Both the position numbers and the translations under genes were made by a program. From Bacteroidota bacterium (GTDB lineage: Bacteria > Bacteroidota > Bacteroidia > Flavobacteriales > Flavobacteriaceae): 60,323 nucleotides of DNA. Shown here piece by piece: positions 2,434 through 14,442 of the stretch. Location: contig JAQCFO010000007.1 in NCBI GenBank assembly GCA_027619415.1, positions 1 through 60,323 on the forward strand. The letters are read 5' to 3'. A model generated the notes under the pieces. That model had not been told where the DNA came from, ran no database searches, and worked only from the letters and a program-made list of their open reading frames with translations. The number at the start of each line of letters is the position of its first letter. Positions within the stretch are counted from its first letter, which is position 1.

Positions 2434-2454
2434 ATATTAATTACATCTGTTTTG

Positions 2455-5208
2455 ATGGATCCTTATTCTTTTTTAAATACCGCACACACTGCTTATTTTG
2501 CAGAGCTTTATGATCAATATCTTATCAACCCGGATCAAGTTGAGCCTAGTTGGCGTGCTTTTTTTCAAGGTTTTGAATTTGGAATAGAAGAGTCTGAAAA
2601 AGAAAACTCATCTCATAAAACAGCAGAAATTCCGCACAATATCCTCAAAGAGTTTAAAGTAGTTAAACTAATTAATGCCTATAGAACTAGAGGGCATTTG
2701 TTTACTAAAACAAATCCTGTAAGAGATAGAAGAACTTACGAGCCTAATTTAGAAATTGAAAATTTTGGGTTAAATAAAGAAGATTTAGAAGAGGTATTTA
2801 ATGCTGGAGAAATAGTTGGCTTAGGTCCAACAACACTCGCTAATATTTTAATTCAATTGGAAACAATTTATTGTAACTCTATAGGAGTAGAGTATATGTT
2901 TATTAGAACACCTGAAAGAATAAACTGGATTCAAGAAAAATTAAATATTAACTCTAATCATCCTAATTTTTCAAAAGATGAGAAAAAACAAATTCTAAAA
3001 AAAATTATAGAGGCTGTTACTTTCGAAAAATTTTTACATACTAAATATGTGGGTCAAAAAAGATTTTCTTTGGAAGGAGGGGAGTCTCTCATACCTGCTT
3101 TAGATGCTTTAATAGAAAAAGCAGCTTTAGGTGGTGTCAAGGAATATGTTGTGGGAATGTCTCACAGAGGAAGATTAAATACCCTTACTAATATTTTTGG
3201 TAAGCCAGTGGAAGGAATTTTTAATGAATTTGATGGAAAAGATTATAAAGAAGAAGTGTTTGATGGAGATGTCAAGTATCATTTAGGATGGACTTCGGAA
3301 AGAAAAACAGACTCAGGAATAAAAGTATATATGAACATTGCTCCAAATCCTTCTCATTTAGAAGCGGTAGGACCAGTTGTTCAAGGAATAGCTAGAGCGA
3401 AACAAGAAAAATACCATCCTGAAAATATTGAAAACGTGCTTCCTATAATTATTCATGGGGATGCCGCTATAGCGGGTCAGGGGGTAGTATATGAAGTGAT
3501 TCAAATGGAAAGGTTAAAAGGGTTTAAGACAGGCGGAACTATTCATATAGTAATAAATAATCAAGTCGGATTTACTACTAATTATTTAGACGGAAGATCT
3601 TCAACCTACTGCACTGATGTTGCCAAAACAACTTTATCACCAGTATTGCACGTAAATTCTGATGATATTGAAGCTGTTGTACATGCTGTTACTTTTGCGT
3701 TGGATTATAGAATGAAATTTAAAAGAGATGTGTTTGTTGATTTGTTAGGTTATAGAAAATATGGACATAATGAAGGAGATGAGCCAAGGTTTACTCAACC
3801 AAAACTTTATAAAGCTATTTCAGTTCATTCTAATCCAATGGAGATTTATTCTAAAAAATTGATTGACCAAGGAGTTGTATCAAAGGATGAGGTTGAATTA
3901 ATCGAAGATAATTACCAAAAATACTTAGAAGATAAGCTAGAGAGTTCTAAAAATGATAAGAATATAGTCATTACTCCATTTATGAGTTACGAATGGGAAG
4001 GTTTTGAAAGGGTTAAAGAACAAACCATGTTAAATGAATTTGAAACACGTGTTTCAAATTCGAATTTGACTAGTATAGCAAATACTATAACTTCTTTACC
4101 CCCTAATTATAAATTTTTAAGAAAAATAGAAAAACTCATAGGAGATAGAAAAAGAATGTTTTTTGAATCTGATAAACTTGATTGGGGTATGGGGGAATTA
4201 CTGGCTTATGGCTCTTTATTAAAAGAGGGGTATAATGTTAGAATTTCTGGTCAAGATGTTGAAAGAGGAACCTTTTCTCATAGACATGCTGTTTTAAAAG
4301 CGGAAGATTCTGAAGAGGAAATTATTCTACTAAACAATATAAGTAAAGATCAAGGAAATTTTAATATTTATAATTCTTCTTTATCAGAATATGGGGTAAT
4401 GGGATTTGAATACGGATATGCACTTACTAGCCCTAAAACTCTTTGTATTTGGGAAGCTCAGTTTGGAGATTTTAGTAATGGCGCGCAAATTATAATTGAC
4501 CAATATTTGTCAGCTGCTGAAGATAAGTGGAAAATCCAAAATGGACTGGTTTTACTTCTTCCTCATGGATATGAAGGGCAAGGTGCAGAACATTCTTCGG
4601 CTAGAATGGAAAGGTACTTACATCTATGTGCAAAAGATAACATGTATGTCGCTAATTGCACTACTCCTTCAAACATGTTTCATATACTAAGAAGGCAGTT
4701 GGTTACCACTTTTAGAAAGCCACTTATAATTTTTACTCCAAAAAGCCTATTAAGACATCCAAAAGCAGTTTCAGAAATAAAAGATTTTGTAGATGGAAGG
4801 TTTCTGCCTTTAATAGATCAACATCTATTTGATTCTGATCAGATAAGAAAAGTAGTATTTTGTTCTGGAAAATTTTATTATGACTTATTAGATCATCAAG
4901 AAAGAAATGGGATTGAAGAAGTGGCTTTAATAAGGCTAGAACAACTTTTTCCTTTACCAATAAAAGAAATCAACCAAGTTTTAAATAAATATTCAAAAGC
5001 TAATGATATAATATGGGCACAAGAAGAGCCAAGAAACATGGGTGCTTGGAGTCATTTATTATTACATCTTCCAAGAGCTACAAGTTTTAGAGTTGCTTCT
5101 CGAAGATTTTATGGCTCTCCTTCTGCAGGGAGTAGTGCAAGATCAAATAAAAGGCATAAAGAAGTTATTGAATATGTGTTTGATGAAAATAAAAATAATA
5201 TGAGATAA
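2455..5208 (+). CDS. sucA: 2-oxoglutarate dehydrogenase E1 component
   Basis: This thiamine-diphosphate-dependent E1 subunit decarboxylates 2-oxoglutarate and succinylates the lipoyl group of SucB in the TCA cycle. At about 917 residues it has the normal family length. The N-terminal FLNTAHTAYFAELYDQYL segment is the E2-binding region. GDAAIAGQGVVYEVIQMERL and the following INNQVGFTTN form the ThDP/Mg site. The C-terminal transketolase-type domain ends with the family signature RFYGSPSAGSSARSNKRHK. The ATG at 2455 (MDPYSF) is preferred over the TTG one codon upstream. Unusually, sucB does not follow directly: seven methyl-cycle-related genes lie between. Confidence 0.97.
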   Translation: MDPYSFLNTAHTAYFAELYDQYLINPDQVEPSWRAFFQGFEFGIEESEKENSSHKTAEIPHNILKEFKVVKLINAYRTRGHLFTKTNPVRDRRTYEPNLEIENFGLNKEDLEEVFNAGEIVGLGPTTLANILIQLETIYCNSIGVEYMFIRTPERINWIQEKLNINSNHPNFSKDEKKQILKKIIEAVTFEKFLHTKYVGQKRFSLEGGESLIPALDALIEKAALGGVKEYVVGMSHRGRLNTLTNIFGKPVEGIFNEFDGKDYKEEVFDGDVKYHLGWTSERKTDSGIKVYMNIAPNPSHLEAVGPVVQGIARAKQEKYHPENIENVLPIIIHGDAAIAGQGVVYEVIQMERLKGFKTGGTIHIVINNQVGFTTNYLDGRSSTYCTDVAKTTLSPVLHVNSDDIEAVVHAVTFALDYRMKFKRDVFVDLLGYRKYGHNEGDEPRFTQPKLYKAISVHSNPMEIYSKKLIDQGVVSKDEVELIEDNYQKYLEDKLESSKNDKNIVITPFMSYEWEGFERVKEQTMLNEFETRVSNSNLTSIANTITSLPPNYKFLRKIEKLIGDRKRMFFESDKLDWGMGELLAYGSLLKEGYNVRISGQDVERGTFSHRHAVLKAEDSEEEIILLNNISKDQGNFNIYNSSLSEYGVMGFEYGYALTSPKTLCIWEAQFGDFSNGAQIIIDQYLSAAEDKWKIQNGLVLLLPHGYEGQGAEHSSARMERYLHLCAKDNMYVANCTTPSNMFHILRRQLVTTFRKPLIIFTPKSLLRHPKAVSEIKDFVDGRFLPLIDQHLFDSDQIRKVVFCSGKFYYDLLDHQERNGIEEVALIRLEQLFPLPIKEINQVLNKYSKANDIIWAQEEPRNMGAWSHLLLHLPRATSFRVASRRFYGSPSAGSSARSNKRHKEVIEYVFDENKNNMR

Positions 5209-5231
5209 TAGTATATAAGAATATATATATA

Positions 5232-5239
5232 TATATTTG
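5232..5239 (+). promoter_or_regulatory. -7 promoter element of the methyl-cycle operon
   Basis: TATATTTG matches TAnnTTTG exactly and sits within an (AT)n run after sucA. The predicted transcription start, about 5-7 bases further on, falls just ahead of the SAM-II-like aptamer. This supports an independent promoter for the downstream met genes. Confidence 0.65.
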
Positions 5240-5250
5240 TATTAATTAAC

Positions 5251-5300
5251 AGAGGAAAATTTTGACTGATTGCCACCTCAATAAAAAAAGCTAAAACAGA
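5251..5300 (+). promoter_or_regulatory. SAM-II-like riboswitch
   Basis: The element has a short P1 stem (GAGG 5252-5255 with CCTC 5276-5279). Its loop contains TTTTGACTGATTGCC, then comes the single strand AATAAAAAAAGCTAAAACAG. Compared from memory with the SAM-II (metX) aptamer, the ATTGC of the loop and the ATAAA...AGCTAAAA of the 3' strand align with identical spacing from AUAAA to CUAAAA. Loop CTG (5266-5268) can pair with 3' CAG (5297-5299), forming the expected pseudoknot. A -7 promoter element lies immediately upstream and SAM-cycle genes follow, so SAM would be expected to repress the operon. The 3' strand ends one base before an ATG at 5302, so ligand binding could block translation initiation. 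Confidence 0.75.
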
Positions 5301-5301
5301 T

Positions 5302-5358
5302 ATGAATTCATTTCCTACTATTTTTTACCCAATTCAACTACACTTTTTAATTTATTAA
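5302..5358 (+). CDS. 18-residue leader ORF after the riboswitch
   Basis: An ATG placed directly after the aptamer opens an 18-codon reading frame starting MNSFPTIFYPIQ and ending TAA at 5356-5358. That stop is two bases before the ATG of the membrane-protein gene at 5361. It is in a different frame from that gene. The layout fits a leader cistron whose initiation is controlled by the riboswitch and whose termination re-initiates the next gene. The sequence matches no protein I know, and it could be a chance ORF. Confidence 0.4.
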   Translation: MNSFPTIFYPIQLHFLIY

Positions 5359-5360
5359 AT

Positions 5361-5912
5361 ATGACTAAAATAAATTTATCATTTACTGGAATTATCTTAT
5401 TGATATTATTTGCCTCTTTTACAAGAATTATTCCTCACATGCATAACTTCACACCAATTGGAGCCATGGCTTTGTTTGGAGGAGCTTATTTAAGTAATAG
5501 ATATCATGCTTTTATTATTCCAATTTTATCATTGTGGTTTAGCGATCTTATCATAAATAATTTCATTTTAAACTATTATGATCAATTTACCTGGTTTTAC
5601 CCTGGTTTTATTTGGCAATATGCCTCTTTTGGAATAATTATTTTGTTTGGTTATTTCTTGTTAAAAAAAATAACCTTTAAAAAAGTATTAATGACTTCAA
5701 TAGGATCAAGTCTGGTCTTTTTTGTTATTACAAATTTTGGTGTATGGGCGACAGGCTCTATATATCCCTTAAGTATTAACGGCTTGATTAGTTGCTTTGT
5801 CCTAGCAATTCCATTTTATAAAGGAACATTATTAGGCTTTTTATTTTATTCATCATTTTTATTTGGAGTATTTGAAATGTCAAAACTTAATAAAAAACCA
5901 ATCAAAATTTAA
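5361..5912 (+). CDS. DUF6580-like putative transport membrane protein
   Basis: This 183-residue, highly hydrophobic protein has about five to six predicted membrane segments. It has the N-terminal RIIPHMHNFTPIGAMALFGGAYL pattern and an FWFSD-like LWFSDLIINNF segment, as in DUF6580 proteins, which resemble the substrate-binding S component of ECF transporters. It is the first full gene of the riboswitch-controlled methyl-cycle operon and is followed after 11 bases by metH. From that context it may import cobalamin, a precursor or methionine; this is inference, since no substrate motif is visible. Confidence 0.7.
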   Translation: MTKINLSFTGIILLILFASFTRIIPHMHNFTPIGAMALFGGAYLSNRYHAFIIPILSLWFSDLIINNFILNYYDQFTWFYPGFIWQYASFGIIILFGYFLLKKITFKKVLMTSIGSSLVFFVITNFGVWATGSIYPLSINGLISCFVLAIPFYKGTLLGFLFYSSFLFGVFEMSKLNKKPIKI

Positions 5913-5923
5913 ATTTACTTTCA

Positions 5924-6922
5924 ATGCAAAACCTTTTCGAAATTTTAAAAAGCAGGATACTAGTTCTAGATGGAGCGATGGGAACCATGATACAACAGTA
6001 CAAGTTTAGCGAATCTGATTATAGGGGAGAGCGTTTTAAAGATTACCCAAGTAGCGTTAAAGGGAACAATGATCTTTTGTCTTTAACTCAACCTGAGGCT
6101 ATTAAAACAATTCATGAAAAATATTTAGAGGTTGGTGCTGATATTATTGAAACTAACACTTTTTCATCCACAAGTATTGGAATGTCAGACTATGACATGG
6201 AATCAATAGTTTATGATTTAAATTATGAATCAGCAAAAATTGCTAAAGAAGCAGCTAATAAGTACACTTTAATTGATTCAAGTAAGCCTAGGTTTGTTGC
6301 GGGCTCAATTGGGCCAACCAATAGAACAGCCAGCATGTCTCCTGATGTTAATGATCCAGGATATAGAGTGGTTACTTTTGACGACTTGGTTATAGCTTAT
6401 TCAGAACAGATTAATGCACTTATTGACGGTCAGGTAGATATATTGTTAGTGGAAACTATTTTTGATACGCTTAATGCTAAGGCGGCCTTATTTGCAATTG
6501 ATCTTATTTTAAATGAGCGAAATATTTCGTTACCCATTATGGTTAGTGGAACTATTACCGATGCTAGTGGTAGAACGCTTTCAGGACAAACTGTTGAAGC
6601 TTTTGTAGCTTCTTTATCTCATATCCCACTTTTGAGTATAGGATTTAATTGCGCTTTAGGGGCTGACCTTCTTTTGCCTTATATGAAAAGATTGAGTAAT
6701 GTAACAGAATTCTACACATCAGCCCACCCAAATGCAGGTCTTCCTAATGCATTTGGCGAATATGACCAAAGTGCTGAAGAAATGAAATTATTAATTAGAG
6801 AATATTTAGAATCTAAATGCGTGAACATAATTGGTGGATGTTGTGGAACTACACCAGAACATATTAAACTTATTGCTGAAGAAACAAAGAATTTTTCACC
6901 TAGAATAATAGAGCAATTATGA
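5924..6922 (+). CDS. metH: Methionine synthase, homocysteine-binding subunit
   Basis: This 332-residue protein corresponds to the N-terminal homocysteine S-methyltransferase module of cobalamin-dependent MetH. It opens with [25 protein letters not shown]. The three zinc-ligand cysteines are present: Cys243 in GFNCALG and Cys306/Cys307 in GGCCGT. The zinc activates homocysteine for methyl transfer from methylcobalamin. The rest of MetH is encoded by the next gene, whose start overlaps this stop by four bases (ATGA). A split MetH of this kind is known in Bacteroidota, so it is probably not a frameshift. Confidence 0.92.
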
Positions 6923-9591
6923 TAGATAAAAACCTTATACTTTCTGGATTAGAACCACTGGTGGTTTCAGAAAAATCAAATTTTATCAATGTTGGTGAAA
7001 GAACCAATGTAACTGGATCAAAAAAATTTTTAAGACTAATTGAAGAAGATAAGTTTTCAGAAGCTCTGGAAGTTGCTAGAGATCAGGTTGAGGGAGGGGC
7101 ACAAATTATTGACATCAATATGGATGAAGGAATGATTGATGGAGTTGAGGCAATGACTAGATTTTTAAATCTTATTGCTTCTGAACCGGATATTTCAAGA
7201 GTCCCTATTATGATTGATAGTTCAAAATGGGAAATAATTGAAGCAGGCCTTAAAACAGTTCAAGGAAAAAGTGTTGTTAATTCCATAAGCTTAAAAGAAG
7301 GAGAAGAGGAGTTTATAACCCGCGCTAGCCTTGTCAAAAGATACGGTGCTGCTGTTATTGTGATGGCTTTTGATGAAAAGGGTCAAGCAGATAATTTAGA
7401 TAGAAGAATAGAAATTTGTAAAAGATCCTATGATATATTAGTTAATAAGGTGAATTTTAAGCCTCAAGACATAATCTTTGATCCGAACATATTCCCTGTA
7501 GCTACTGGAATGGAGGAGCATAGAAAAAATGCATTAGATTTCTTTTTAGCCACAAAATGGATTAGAACTAATTTACCCTATGCTAGTGTTAGCGGAGGAG
7601 TGAGTAATGTTTCCTTTTCATTTAGAGGAAATAATTCGGTTAGGGAAGCCATGCATTCCGCGTTTTTATATCATGCTATTAAACATGGTATGAATATGGG
7701 AATAGTTAATCCTAATATGCTTGAAATTTATGATGAAATCCCTAAAGATTTACTTGATCGTGTTGAAGATGTTTTATTAGATAGAAGAGAGGATGCAACT
7801 GAAAGATTACTGGATTTCGCAGAAAGTGTTGTAGGTGACAAAAAAGAAAAAAAATCAGTAAATAAAGAGTGGCGTAATTTTGAGCTTAGAGAAAGAATTT
7901 CTTATTCATTAATTAATGGGAAAGATGAATTTATTGAAGATGATGTAGAGTTAGCTAGATTAAGTGTAGAAAGACCAATAATGGTTATTGAAGGTCATTT
8001 AATGGACGGTATGAACGTAGTAGGAGATTTGTTTGGAGAGGGAAAAATGTTTTTACCTCAGGTTGTAAAGTCAGCTAGAGTAATGAAAAAAGCGGTTGCT
8101 TATTTACTGCCATATATTGAAGCTTCTAAAACAGATGGTTCAAGTAATTCAGCTGGAAAAATTTTAATGGCCACGGTAAAAGGGGATGTTCATGATATAG
8201 GTAAAAATATAGTGGGTGTTGTTTTAGCTTGTAACAATTTTGAAATTATTGATTTAGGAGTCATGGTGCCTCCAGAAAAAATCATCAAAACAGCTGTTGA
8301 AGAAAATGTAGATATTATAGGCCTGTCAGGATTAATTACTCCCTCATTAGACGAGATGGTTTTTCTGGCACAAGAACTTAAAAGATTAAATATTAAAATA
8401 CCTCTTCTAATTGGTGGTGCAACAACCTCCAAAGCTCATACAGCAGTTAAAATTTTTCCTGAAATTGATTCGCCAGTAGTTCATGTTAATGACGCTTCTA
8501 GGGCTGTTGGGGTTGCTAGTAGTTTAATTAATAAAGATTTAAAGGAAGATTACTGGAATGGAATTAAAAAAGAATACACTGATTTTAGAGTAAAGTTTTT
8601 AAATAAAAAAAGTGAAAAAAGATATATAGATTATAAAACTTCTAAAAACAATAATCTTCAAATTGATTTTAATAAATATAGCCCTGTTAAGCCTAAACAA
8701 TTAGGAATTGAGGTAATTGAAGAGATTTCATTAGAAACCCTAGTTCCTTATATTGATTGGTCGCCATTTTTTAATACATGGGGACTTCATGGCAAATATC
8801 CTGATATTTTTGATTACGAATTGACAGGAAAACAAGCGAAAGAATTGTTTGAAGATGGGCAGATAATGCTTAAGAAAATTTTAAAAGAAAAATCTCTTAC
8901 TGCAAAAGCTATATTTGGATTATTTCCGGCTAATTCTGTTGATGATGATATTGAAGTTTATAACTCAGAAAAAACAGAAACTATCGCTAAGTTTTTAACT
9001 CTAAGACAGCAATTAAAAAAGAAAGAAGGAGAACCAAATATGGCTCTATCAGATTTTATTGCACCAAAAGATTCTGGAATAGATGATTATATAGGTTGTT
9101 TTTGTGTCAGTACTGGTTTTGGATCAGATGAACTTTCAAAAGAATATGAAGATAAAATTGACGATTATAGTTCTATAATGGTCAAGGCTTTAGCTGATAG
9201 ATTCGCTGAAGCATATGCTGAATACTTACATAAGCATGTAAGACTAGAGAAGTGGGGGTATTCTTATGATGAAAAACTTAGCAATAAGGAATTAATTCAA
9301 GAGTCTTATAAGGGAATAAGACCAGCTCCAGGATATCCAGCTTGTCCAGATCATTTAGAAAAGAGTACAATTTGGGATCTATTAAAAGTAGAAGAATCAA
9401 TAGGGGTCAAATTAACGGAAAGTTTAGCTATGTGGCCCGCTTCTTCAGTATCAGGGTATTATTTTGGATCTGAAAAAGCAAAATATTTTGGATTGGGAAA
9501 TATTAATCAAGACCAATTAATAGATTACTCAAAAAGAAGAAACATTTCAATTGAAAAAGCTGAAAAATGGCTTGGTCCTAATTTGAATTAA
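6919..9591 (+). CDS. metH: Methionine synthase, folate/B12/activation subunit
   Basis: This 890-residue protein carries the rest of MetH. A pterin-binding TIM barrel for methyl-THF lies at about residues 10-300 ([25 protein letters not shown]). A cobalamin-binding cap and Rossmann domain follow, with the DVHDIG motif at 423-428; His425 is the cobalt ligand. The C-terminal AdoMet-binding reactivation domain includes [12 protein letters not shown]. It lacks the homocysteine domain supplied by the preceding gene, to which it is translationally coupled. The B12 requirement makes methionine synthesis dependent on cobalamin supply. Confidence 0.95.
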
Positions 9592-9596
9592 TAATA

Positions 9597-10550
9597 ATGA
9601 AAGTAACAGAACATATTAAAAAAGCTCAAGGAAAAACCCAATTTACTTTTGAAATTTTACCCCCAGTAAAAGGCCATAATGTACAGTCTATTTTTGATAA
9701 TATTGATCCTTTGATGGAGTTTAATCCTCCTTTTATTGATGTCACTTACCACAGAGAAGAGCATGTCTATAATGATTTAGGGAATGGACTATTGCAAAAA
9801 AAAGTAGTAAGAAAACGTCCAGGTACAGTTGGTATTTGCGCTGCTCTTCAGAATAAATATAATGTAGATGCGGTTCCTCATATTCTGTGTGGAGGTTTTA
9901 GTAAAGAGGTAACGGAAAACCTTTTAATTGACTTAGATTTTCTAGGGATAAACAATATTGTAGCCTTAAGAGGTGATGCTATTAAGTCAGAAACTTATTT
10001 CACACCAAATAAAGAAGGGCATTCCTATGCAAGTGAGTTAGTTAATCAGATTTCAGACTTAAATAAAGGAAAATATTTGGAAGAAGTTGAGGTGTCCTCT
10101 AAAACTGATTTCTGTATAGGAGTGGCCGGTTATCCTGAAAAACACATGGAAGCTCCAAGTCTAGAAAGTGATATTCACTTTTTAAAAGAAAAAATAAAAC
10201 TAGGAGCCGAATATATAGTAACTCAAATGTTTTTTGACAATAAGAAGTTCTTTGAATTTCAAAATATTTGTAAAAAAGAAGGTATCAAAGTGCCAATTAT
10301 CCCAGGATTAAAGCCTATTTCAACAAAAAAACAACTTAATATTCTTCCGCATAGATTTCATTGTGACCTTCCTGAAACTCTAATAAAAGAGGTTATAAAA
10401 TGCAAAGATAACTCGCAAGTTAATAAGGTTGGGATAGAGTGGTGTATACAGCAAAGTAAGGAACTTAAAGAATATGGCGTTCCTTTTTTACACTACTATT
10501 CGATGGGGAAAGCGCTTAATATTAAAAAGATTGCACAATCAGTTTTTTAG
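9597..10550 (+). CDS. metF: 5,10-methylenetetrahydrofolate reductase
   Basis: This 317-residue FAD-dependent enzyme reduces methylene-THF to methyl-THF, the methyl donor for MetH. FTFEILPPVKG carries the catalytic Glu region, followed by FIDVTYHREEH. NIVALRGDAIKS and YIVTQMFFDNKKF are the family motifs for flavin and folate binding. It begins five bases after the metH stop, so it is in the same operon and completes the route from folate to methionine. Confidence 0.95.
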   Translation: MKVTEHIKKAQGKTQFTFEILPPVKGHNVQSIFDNIDPLMEFNPPFIDVTYHREEHVYNDLGNGLLQKKVVRKRPGTVGICAALQNKYNVDAVPHILCGGFSKEVTENLLIDLDFLGINNIVALRGDAIKSETYFTPNKEGHSYASELVNQISDLNKGKYLEEVEVSSKTDFCIGVAGYPEKHMEAPSLESDIHFLKEKIKLGAEYIVTQMFFDNKKFFEFQNICKKEGIKVPIIPGLKPISTKKQLNILPHRFHCDLPETLIKEVIKCKDNSQVNKVGIEWCIQQSKELKEYGVPFLHYYSMGKALNIKKIAQSVF

Positions 10551-10623: not shown

Positions 10624-11874
10624 ATGAGTTACCTTTTTACATCCGAATCAGTTAGTGAAGGGCATCCAGATAAAGTTGCTGATCAAATTAGTGATGCACT
10701 AATTGATAATTTTTTAGCTTTTGATCCTAATTCAAAAGTAGCCTGTGAGACTTTAGTAACAACAGGGCAAGTCGTCTTAGCCGGAGAGGTTAAATCTAAT
10801 ACTTATCTTGATGTTCAAGCAATTTCTAGAAAAGTAATAAACAAAATTGGCTACAATAAAAGCGAATATATGTTTGATGGTAATTCTTGTGGAGTTTTTT
10901 CTGCTATACATGAACAATCATCTGATATAAATCAAGGTGTAGAGAGAAAAAATCCAGAAGATCAAGGTGCTGGGGATCAAGGAATGATGTTTGGATACGC
11001 TTGTAATGAGACAGAAGACTATATGCCATTAGCTTTAGATTTGTCTCATAAAATATTAATAGAATTAGCAGAATTAAGAAGAGAAAATAATGAAATAACT
11101 TATTTAAGACCTGATTCTAAATCCCAAGTAACACTGCAATATTCTGAAGATAATAAGCCTGAAAAAATTGTGGCTATAGTAGTTTCTACTCAACATGATG
11201 ATTTTGATATTGAAGATAAAATGTTAGCTAAAATTAAACTGGACATTACTTCAATTCTAATACCAAGATTATTAAATAAGTACCCAGATTATAAAACTTT
11301 TTTCAATAATGAAATTGAGTATCACATAAATCCAACTGGAAAATTTGTTATAGGTGGCCCACACGGAGATACCGGTTTAACAGGAAGAAAAATTATTGTA
11401 GATACTTATGGGGGAAAAGGTGCACATGGAGGAGGTGCTTTTTCAGGAAAAGATCCTAGTAAAGTAGATAGAAGTGCGGCTTACGCGACAAGACATATCG
11501 CTAAAAATTTAGTTGCTGCAGGTGTGGCTGATGAATGTTTGGTTCAAGTTAGTTACGCTATTGGAGTGGCTAAGCCAATGGGCATATTTGTTAATACTTA
11601 TGGAACATCAAAGATTTCTATGAATGATAGTGAATTAGCTAAAATTGTTGAAGAAATTTTTGATATGCGCCCTTATTTTATTGAAAAAAGATTAAAATTA
11701 AGGAATCCAATTTATACAGAAACGGCTGCTTATGGACATATGGGAAGAAAATCAAAATTTGTTACTAAGACTTTTATTTCTCCAAACGGTGAATCAAAAA
11801 CTTTAGAAGTCGAGTTATTTACCTGGGAAAAATTAGATATGCTAGATAAAATTAAACTAAAATTAAAACTATAA
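10624..11874 (+). CDS. metK: S-adenosylmethionine synthetase
   Basis: This 416-residue protein makes SAM from methionine and [24 protein letters not shown] at the N-terminus carries the ATP/metal-binding His and Asp. [12 protein letters not shown] and [16 protein letters not shown] are the two MetK signature motifs. A 73-base A/T-rich spacer separates it from metF, with no clear terminator, so it is probably still in the same transcription unit. As the producer of the ligand sensed by the upstream riboswitch, it fits feedback control. Confidence 0.97.
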
Positions 11875-11877
11875 TAA

Positions 11878-13188
11878 ATGAGTAAAGCAAAATACATTCC
11901 ATTCAAAGTAAAAGATATTTCTTTAGCTGATTGGGGAAGAAAGGAAATTAGATTAGCAGAAGCAGAAATGCCAGGTCTTATGTCACTTAGAGAAGAATAT
12001 GGTAAAACAAAACCATTAAAAGGGGCTAGAATAGCAGGCTGTCTTCACATGACTATCCAAACAGCAGTTCTAATAGAAACTTTGGTTGAATTAGGGGCGG
12101 ATGTTACTTGGAGTTCATGTAATATTTTTTCTACTCAAGATCATGCAGCAGCAGCAATAGCAGCAGCAGGGATACCTGTTTATGCATGGAAAGGTATGAA
12201 TGAAGAAGAGTTTGAATGGTGTATAGAACAAACAGTGTTTTTTGGAGAAGATAAAAAACCGTTAAATATGATTTTAGATGATGGTGGAGATTTAACAAAT
12301 TTGGTGTTAGATCATTATCCTGAATTAGTAAAAGGAATAAAGGGTTTATCTGAAGAAACAACCACTGGTGTTCACAGGTTGTATGAAAGAGTGAAAAATG
12401 GAACTTTACCCATTCCTGCAATTAATGTAAATGACTCAGTGACCAAATCAAAATTTGATAATAAGTATGGGTGTCAAGAAAGTGCAGTAGATGCTGTAAG
12501 AAGGGCGACTGATATAATGATTGCTGGTAAAAGAGTAGTTGTGGCTGGGTATGGAGATGTTGGAAAAGGTACCGTTGCCTCATTTAGTGGAGCAGGAGCT
12601 ATAGTAACTGTTGTGGAAGTCGATCCAATTTGCGCCCTACAAGCTTCGATGGATGGACATGAAGTAAAGAAAATGAAAACAGTAATTGGAAATGCTGATA
12701 TAATTGTAACGGCAACTGGAAATAAAGATATTTTAAAAGAAGAACATTTTAGGTTAATGAAAGACAAAGTAATTGTTTGTAATATAGGACACTTTGATAA
12801 TGAAATTGATATGGCATGGTTAAATAAAAATTACGGAAATACAAAAGATGAAATTAAGCCTCAAGTCGATTTGTATAATATTAATGGTATAGATATTATT
12901 GTTTTAGCAGAGGGCAGGCTTGTTAACTTAGGTTGTGCTACTGGACACCCTAGCTTTGTAATGAGTAATTCTTTTACCAACCAAACTTTGGCCCAATTAG
13001 AATTGTGGTTAAATACAGATAAATATGATAATAAAGTACATATGCTGCCAAAACATCTAGATGAAAAGGTTGCTAAGTTACATTTGAGTAGACTTGGTGT
13101 TGAACTAGAGGAACTGACTGATGATCAAGCAAAATATATAGGCGTTAAAGTCGATGGACCATATAAGCCTGAATATTATAGGTATTAA
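11878..13188 (+). CDS. ahcY: Adenosylhomocysteinase
   Basis: This 436-residue NAD-dependent hydrolase splits S-adenosylhomocysteine into adenosine and homocysteine. It relieves product inhibition of methyltransferases and returns homocysteine to MetH. The NAD-binding motif is [26 protein letters not shown] and the C-terminal [11 protein letters not shown] are typical of SAHases; the conserved Lys-Tyr end helps bind NAD in the neighbouring subunit. It begins three bases after the metK stop and closes the methyl-cycle block. Confidence 0.97.
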
Positions 13189-13221: not shown

Positions 13222-14442
13222 ATGATTTTAGAAATGAAAGTTCCTTCCCCTGGTGAATCAATTTCAGAAGTTGAAATTGCTCAGTGGCTAGTTAAAGATG
13301 GAGACTACGTTAAAAAAGATCAAACGATTGCTGAAGTGGATTCAGATAAAGCAACTTTAGATCTTCCTGCTGAACAAAGTGGTGTTATCACGTTAAAAGC
13401 GAATGAAGGAGATGCGGTAGACGTAGGAGCGGTCATATGTTTAATAGACACTTCTGCTAAAGCCCCAATTTCTAATGATATAAAATCAACAGAAAAAATT
13501 GTTGAAAAAACAATTCAAAAACAATCAGAGCCAATTGAAACTAAAATAGAAGTAAGTAGTTTCGCTAGTGGAACACCTTCACCTGCAGCAGCAAAAATAT
13601 TAGATGAAAAAAAGATCCCTGTATCTAATGTTTCTGGTTCTGGAAGAGGTGGAAGAATAACCAAAGACGATGCGCTTAAAGCACTTCCAAAAGTAGATGT
13701 GGATACAATAGTTAAAGGGAGGAGTATAGAATCGAAAAAACTTTCACTACTTAGAAGAAAGGTAGCTCAAAGGTTAGTGGCTGTTAAGAATCAAACGGCG
13801 ATGCTAACTACTTTTAATGAAGTTAACATGACTCCAATTTTTGATCTTAGAAAACAATATAAAGAAGAGTTTAAAGAAAAACATGGTGTTGGTCTTGGTT
13901 TTATGAGTTTTTTCACAAAAGCGACTGTTCAGGCTTTAAAGGATTTTCCAGATGTTAATAGCATGATAGATGGAGATCAACAAATTAAATATGATTTTTC
14001 TGATATAAGTATTGCTGTTTCCGGACCAAAAGGACTCATGGTACCTGTAGTTAGAGATGCACAAGGTTTGACTTTTTCTGGAATTGAAAAAGAAATAAAA
14101 AGATTAGCAATAAAAGCTAGAGATGGAGAAATTACGGTTGATGAAATGACAGGAGGCACTTTTACTATAACTAATGGTGGAGTGTTTGGATCAATGCTTT
14201 CTACTCCAATAATTAATCCTCCTCAGTCTGCAATTTTAGGAATGCATAATATAATTGATCGTCCTATTGCAGTGAATGGAAAGGTTGAAGTTCATCCAAT
14301 TATGTATTTGGCACTTTCTTATGATCATAGAATAATAGATGGCAAGGAATCTGTAGGATTTTTAGTTTCTATTAAAGAAGCTCTTGAAAATCCTATTGAA
14401 AAATTAATGGGTGGAAATATTAAAAAGGCATTAGAGCTTTAG
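13222..14442 (+). CDS. sucB: Dihydrolipoyl succinyltransferase (E2)
   Basis: This 406-residue E2 subunit of 2-oxoglutarate dehydrogenase accepts the succinyl group from SucA on lipoylated Lys43 ([11 protein letters not shown]) and passes it to CoA. Domains in order are lipoyl (about 2-77), an Ala/Glu/Lys-rich linker, the E3-binding domain (about 117-152, [15 protein letters not shown]) and the acyltransferase domain with the active-site His369 (YDHRIIDG). Only 33 bases separate it from ahcY and no TAnnTTTG element is visible there, so it may depend partly on read-through from the methyl-cycle operon. Confidence 0.95.

Follow-up and report, generated by a model that had tools for sequence, protein, structure and literature searches.

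The SAM-II riboswitch at the head of a methyl-cycle operon in this flavobacterial DNA appears to be a translational OFF switch of the direct-occlusion kind that lacks a Shine-Dalgarno sequence and acts through a mini-ORF coupled to the first gene of the operon, and we give this reading a probability of about 0.7. The aptamer lies on the forward strand of the window (the whole 60,323-nucleotide stretch that was analyzed), and the gene behind the mini-ORF encodes a DUF6580 membrane protein that is probably a B12 (corrinoid) importer. The riboswitch class is known and common in the lineage, and its output and target look, from the sequence, like a new variant. The features are collected in Table 1.

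Table 1. Features of the riboswitch and the operon in the window
Feature	Position	Strand	Basis
Presumed flavobacterial -7 promoter element, TATATTTG	5232..5239	+	read directly
SAM-II (long loop) aptamer	5246..5304	+	RF01726, 55.2 bits vs 44
P1 stem, GAGG 5252-5255 / CCTC 5276-5279	5252..5279	+	read directly; compensatory variants in relatives
P2a pseudoknot pairing, CTG 5266-5268 / CAG 5297-5299	5266..5299	+	sequence; relatives
Aptamer 3' strand (5290-5299), also -12 to -3 of AUG 5302; GCTAAAACAGATATG	5290..5304	+	
Mini-ORF, MNSFPTIFYPIQLHFLIY, with its stop 2 nt upstream of the AUG of DUF6580	5302..5358	+	
DUF6580 membrane protein, probable corrinoid (B12) importer	5361..5912	+	PF20221, 172.4 bits
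metH N-terminal part (homocysteine S-methyltransferase)	5924..6922	+	PF02574; NCBIfam metH below full-length cutoff
metH C-terminal part (pterin-, B12-binding, activation domains)	6919..9591	+	domain matches
metF	9597..10550	+	PF02219
metK	10624..11874	+	PF00438, PF02772, PF02773
ahcY	11878..13188	+	PF05221, PF00670

Identity and distribution of the aptamer

Scanned at the Rfam gathering thresholds, the whole window gave RF01726 at 5246-5304 with 55.2 bits (E 6.9e-8), above the curated cutoff of 44 bits. In a search of 5150-5400 with permissive limits, RF01726 was the sole significant match (E 2.9e-10), and the three matches listed with E values up to 10 included neither SAM-V nor any other SAM family. 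These results confirmed that the element is a SAM-II (long loop) aptamer. The first-pass annotation, which was made from the letters alone, had named this type, with SAM-V as the other model to search, and the parts that it described (the -7 element, P1, the ATTGC of the loop, and the GCTAAA strand at 5290-5295) were all present in our reading of the site. The conserved GCUAAA strand of SAM-II has a SAM-contact role, and binding of SAM by the window aptamer is predicted.

The relatives showed the covariation that an alignment had been expected to bring out. P1 was paired in all 138 of the 140 sites for which its pattern was tabulated, and its variants, AGGG/CCCT at three sites and TGGG/CCCG at one, were all compensatory. 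The proposed CTG/CAG pseudoknot held in 120 of 135 tabulated sites; one site had TTG/CAA instead, and one more had ATG/CAT when permissive spacing was allowed. The triplet was unpaired in 5 of the 135, none of which precedes DUF6580, and all 13 sites of the window's type kept CTG/CAG. Upstream, we take TATATTTG to be a flavobacterial -7 promoter element. In 12 of the 13 DUF6580-type sites, a TA-N2/3-TT(T/C)G pattern began 11 to 21 nt 5' of where the model starts, and sigma-70-like matches at the window site (2, against a shuffle mean of 2.9) were not above shuffles.

The genome of the window holds two SAM-II copies, one 5' of DUF6580 and one 5' of metY. The window copy scored lower than the other (55.2 versus 68.8 bits), as a decaying, functionless duplicate might; GAGG/CCTC, CTG/CAG, GCTAAA, and the AUG were nevertheless kept in 13/13 sites of the type and the -7 element in 12/13, and decay is hardly credible as an explanation.

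SAM-II had been regarded as surprising in this lineage. We rejected this argument, because 96 of 100 Flavobacteriaceae genomes had a match, 95 of them above the cutoff (G085 scored 37.8 bits, below it), and SAM-II has already been published for Bacteroidetes. Among the control genomes, 1 of 14 had a match (Bacteroides ihuae). The accessible text of Barrick and Breaker 2007 (PMC2258182) reports SAM-II in Bacteroidetes, and table 1 of Weinberg 2010 (PMC2864571) lists "SAM-II long loops" (RF01726) for Bacteroidetes and marine sequences.

The first downstream gene, typed by tblastn, was metK at 99 of the 140 sites, metY at 18, DUF6580 at 13, metH at 3, and queF at 2. Among the five sites without a type, four precede a lipoprotein gene and one is a sub-threshold match. 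The sub-threshold match G119_C64 (30.9 bits) was counted among the 140 sites and entered the site table and the count of the -6 base described below; its start is absent, and it stood outside the duplex test. In three sites, CTAA was missing from the Rfam coordinates. The window's genus is a group of small-genome Flavobacteriaceae whose two named members are uncultured metagenome-assembled genomes. SAM-II matched in 19 of its 22 genomes and the DUF6580-type copy was found in 13, and since the genomes are 51 to 93% complete, absences mean little. Loci L042 and L043 were treated as the same contigs as G114:C7 and G119:C49, not as extra genomes.

Gene order downstream of the aptamer

The methyl-cycle operon that had been expected downstream was present. 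The claim that metH is its first regulated gene was rejected, since the mini-ORF and then DUF6580 precede metH. The gaps along DUF6580, the two metH parts, metF, metK, and ahcY were 11, -4, 5, 73, and 3 nt. MetH is split into two ORFs with a 4-nt overlap (5924-9591), and separate ORFs were also seen in L032, L033, L034, L040, and L041. The genus relative L032 has the order DUF6580-metH-metF, without metK and ahcY.

The operon sits between the genes at 2452-5208 and 13222-14442, which we take to be sucA and sucB of the 2-oxoglutarate dehydrogenase complex; the sucB domains were found by Pfam. The reported adjacency to sucA stands here but fails as a general feature: several genus relatives have a tRNA-like end upstream, and Rfam found a tRNA upstream of the SAM-II locus in L043. 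The sucA neighborhood of the aptamer is incidental. In L033 (G052_C2) and L034 (G081_C28), the order was SAM-II, queF, DUF6580, metH, so that the SAM sensor is ahead of a queuosine-pathway gene; queF was identified by Pfam in G052, and the G081 copy is 82% identical. Taken together, the type, the pseudoknot, and the operon of the earlier interpretation stood and its lineage argument did not. The mini-ORF, the missing downstream anti-aptamer that is usual elsewhere, and the connection between the first gene and B12 were absent from it.

A predicted start codon at the aptamer end opens a mini-ORF

In 13/13 DUF6580-type sites, the first AUG lay exactly 12 nt downstream of the first base of GCTAAA, as CAGNNATG. 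Among sites with the motif used for the AUG, pairing, and -6 counts (95 of the 99 metK sites have it), an AUG at +12 was found in 1/95 metK-type and 0/18 metY-type sites. Some AUG lay within 16 nt of GCTAA in 15 metK/metY sites, so an early AUG as such is not unique to the DUF6580 type. With the AUG at +12, the strand predicted to bind SAM doubles as the start region of the mini-ORF: the bases at -12 to -3 are GCUAAAACAG, and the AUG begins 2 nt after the P2a helix. This placement inside the P2 strand fits direct occlusion; ribosomes are predicted to use the AUG, and SAM to occlude it. At the three metH-type copies, which are from another genus, the metH AUG itself lies at or inside P2a.

The mini-ORF had 12 to 32 codons in 12 of the 13 relatives, its peptide was not conserved, and its stop codon began at most 5 nt from the DUF6580 AUG in 11 of the 13. 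The exceptions were G105, where the stop is 17 nt upstream, and G115, where the frame (G115_C1) is fused to DUF6580 and gives 208 aa. The fused frame is what favors the idea that mini-ORF and DUF6580 are one protein, through a frameshift or as a true N-terminal extension, but in 12/13 sites a separate stop closes the mini-ORF no later than the first DUF6580 codons and neither its length nor its residues are conserved, so a single protein is very improbable.

Of 10 nonredundant spacers, 8 kept the frame open as far as the DUF6580 start, where base shuffles predicted 2.07 (P 1.9e-5), and the frame contained 4 stops in 212 codons, compared with 16/211 and 20/208 in the other two frames (Fisher 8e-4); the 13 DUF6580-type sites come from one genus and are not independent, and the shuffle statistics ignore kinship. 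The window's own mini-ORF was not open by the strict test, its stop lying one codon before the DUF6580 start. In the 15 metK/metY sites where an early AUG was found, the stop always lay more than 8 nt from the gene start. Where DUF6580 begins with ATGAATAAA, those bases carry stops in both other frames; the overlap of the stop with the start thus partly follows from that sequence, and what is telling is that the frame stays open as far as the start, rather than the stop itself.

The base at -6 of the start was A in 14 of 16 direct-type sites (13 DUF6580 and 3 metH) and in 13 of the remaining 120 (P 4.6e-10). For the genus alone, the counts were 11/13 for the DUF6580 type and 1/23 for the others, the single case being the sub-threshold G119_C64. 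In Flavobacterium johnsoniae, A at -3 and -6 favors initiation, according to the part of the source available to us (PMC6847099). The -3 base at the window AUG is G, which is set by the CAG of P2a; it is not the favored A and does not fit. In the nested fold of the ligand-free leader, the unpaired probability across -12 to +3 was 0.18 to 0.64, which is only partly open.

Two output designs, with and without an anti-aptamer

The duplex test covered 133 of the 140 sites, the four sites without a recognized start and the three metH sites being excluded. At metK sites, a downstream strand was complementary to the aptamer with a mean z of -2.59, and 69 of 98 sites ranked at 5 or fewer of 100 dinucleotide shuffles; at metY sites, the mean z was -3.43, with 13 of 16 sites at this level. 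The DUF6580-type sites showed no excess anti-aptamer (mean z -0.39; 1 of 13 at the same level). Paired with their own spacers, metK aptamers reached -17.4 kcal/mol versus -15.5 kcal/mol with the spacers of other genomes, and in 71 of 98 cases the own spacer paired better than the average swap, with a median rank of 30 of 98, so the covariation of own pairs is modest. The pairing reached -12 kcal/mol or better in 107 metK/metY cases; in these, it was centered on GATTTGAC and ended a median of 21 nt before the AUG. From these patterns, the metK/metY anti-aptamer can be read as a strand-exchange platform.

At metK/metY-type sites of the family, for example in L039 and L041, anti-aptamer elements such as GTCAAATC or GCAATC were seen roughly 20 nt upstream of the start codon, and in several small genomes a hairpin RTTGCTTT...AAAGCAAY adjoins the AUG (by eye).

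At the window riboswitch, no intrinsic terminator-like site was found, and the fold of 5300-5400 was no better than its shuffles (z 0.74). These results bear on the possibility that the mini-ORF is incidental, with translation starting only at 5361 and SAM acting through a structure between the aptamer and 5361, like the metK-type anti-aptamer, or through loss of transcription. Anti-aptamers are common at the family's metK/metY sites, and the window spacer contains, by eye, a weak CAATTCAA complement to TTGA/ATTG, both of which would suit an incidental mini-ORF. The DUF6580-type spacers as a group lack excess complementarity, however, the region folds like its shuffles, the AUG position is invariant, and the frame is open more often than expected, and we consider an incidental mini-ORF unlikely. 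The presence of one aptamer with two output designs in one genus makes a comparison possible.

Proposed mechanism

In the proposed direct-occlusion switch, binding of SAM would lock the 3' strand that holds GCUAAAACAG, and the 30S subunit would be unable to start at 5302. At low SAM, ribosomes would start at 5302, translate the mini-ORF as a dispensable landing pad, stop at or a few bases from the DUF6580 start, and re-initiate there. Re-initiation would yield DUF6580 and the products of the closely packed metH-metF-metK-ahcY genes, so that SAM would repress the operon. Because DUF6580 is a probable B12 importer, low SAM would raise B12 uptake along with the B12-dependent MetH. Translation in Bacteroidota starts without Shine-Dalgarno pairing, and the workings of translational riboswitches in this phylum are therefore worth a direct test. 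The candidate start region in the window is the aptamer strand itself, which fits in a small construct.

DUF6580 and its probable link to B12

One scan of a genome collection gave 73 DUF6580 loci, and 43 distinct ones were scanned with Rfam. A cobalamin or AdoCbl-II riboswitch was found up to 5 kb away in 27 of the 43, a raw count without a background rate that does not stand for 27 independent events, as taxon and place in the list governed the choice of loci and some of these are closely related (Pelagibacter, Formosa-like); the match in L047 was marginal (36.8 versus 36.5 bits). SAM-II was found in 2 of the 43 loci, and metH was near DUF6580 in 6 of the 73, two of them from the window's genus. 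Genes were listed for eight loci, namely seven with a B12 riboswitch and the SAM-II locus L043. An ORF of 616 to 660 aa, the size of a TonB receptor, stood beside DUF6580 in all seven listed riboswitch loci. In three Pelagibacter loci, AdoCbl-II was followed by an ORF of 644 to 660 aa and then DUF6580, and in four Flavobacteriaceae loci, a cobalamin riboswitch headed a divergent ORF of 616 to 644 aa adjoining DUF6580. TIGR01779 (TonB-dependent B12 receptor) was the top family for each of the four ORFs tested among these seven, under its cutoff. Compared with PDB sequences, one of two ORFs matched BtuB (1e-28) and the other matched the colicin I receptor (1.6e-12).

The AlphaFold model of DUF6580 had a pLDDT of 94.4. 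Among its first 14 Foldseek matches, five were named ECF transporter, S-component, or RibU, all nonsignificant with a best E of 0.21. The DUF6580 profile had no match among PDB sequences, and the family was not named in the open literature searched. These observations suggest that DUF6580 is probably a B12 importer. An import function for another substrate, such as folate or a methionine precursor, with the methyl cycle as the only link through the operon, is compatible with the switch mechanism and concerns the substrate alone. The first Foldseek match is a chain of a folate ECF transporter (7nnt_C; TM 0.57/0.61, E 0.21), and 16 of the 43 scanned loci have no B12 riboswitch. Set against these, the B12 riboswitches at the other 27 loci and the receptor-size neighbors with their sub-cutoff resemblance to the B12 receptor family leave another substrate rather improbable.

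A cobalamin riboswitch match was found in 1 of the 22 genus genomes, which are often incomplete, and SAM sensing may thus have replaced B12 sensing in the genus. A BtuB-like query from Pelagibacter gave only two matches in these 22 genomes, partial or weak.

A further SAM-II copy lies 5' of a BtuG-like lipoprotein gene in 4 of the 22 genomes (L222-L225, from G115, G119, G108, and G102). The best PDB sequence match of the lipoprotein was 8bmx (E 1.3e-9), and other propeller proteins also matched; 8bmx is BtuG2 in the accessible text of PMC10404256, and background on BtuG is given in that of PMC6143338. The lipoprotein had no secure family in Pfam or NCBIfam. It was found whole or in part in 7 of the 22 genomes, with no match in the window's own genome. 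In G102, a PhzF-like gene is next after it, and the homologue in G101 has a TPP-riboswitch-like element upstream (L235:1385-1470; 38.8 bits, below the cutoff of 54.3).

We hold at even odds the broader proposal that, in this genus, SAM-II took over B12-uptake genes from cobalamin riboswitches, with a direct switch and landing-pad mini-ORF before a candidate new B12 importer family, DUF6580, and another copy before the BtuG-like lipoprotein in 4/22 genomes. No SAM-II-controlled B12 gene was found in the accessible open literature on SAM riboswitches with btuB. If DUF6580 is indeed a B12 importer, a role would be assigned to a family of formerly no known function that occurs in many phyla, Pelagibacter included, and a SAM sensor would then control vitamin uptake.

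Comparison with known systems

The window aptamer shares its sequence, P1, P2a, and the GCUAAA strand with the SAM-II long loop of Bacteroidetes and marine sequences, as far as the accessible text describes it (RF01726; PMC2864571). It differs from most tested metK/metY copies of the family in having an AUG at the aptamer end and a coupled mini-ORF, without an anti-aptamer, and its target is a candidate B12 importer with metH.

SAM-II riboswitches that act by direct occlusion form an established group, according to the consulted portions of PMC10907184 and PMC6061858. In the metX SAM-II and SAM-V riboswitches described there, the 3' strand of the bound pseudoknot overlaps the landing region of the ribosome and translation is switched off, as is predicted for the window element. 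Unlike these, the window element has no Shine-Dalgarno sequence, and the AUG that would be occluded belongs to a nonconserved mini-ORF coupled to the next gene. For SAM-II riboswitches with translational coupling, the accessible open literature yielded only transcription-translation coupling. The B12 riboswitch of Mycobacterium tuberculosis ppe2 controls a translated uORF that serves as a landing pad, with termination and reinitiation at an AUGA overlap, which was experimentally tested (available text of PMC11260477). The window element resembles it, from sequence alone, in a riboswitch-controlled leader ORF as landing pad, and differs in aptamer, ligand, and phylum.

SAM is the co-repressor of MetJ, a gammaproteobacterial DNA-binding protein. 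MetJ regulons include btuB, which places B12 uptake under a methionine-cycle regulator together with metH (PMC4239095, in the text accessible to us). The same arrangement is proposed for the operon in the window, where the regulator would be an RNA.
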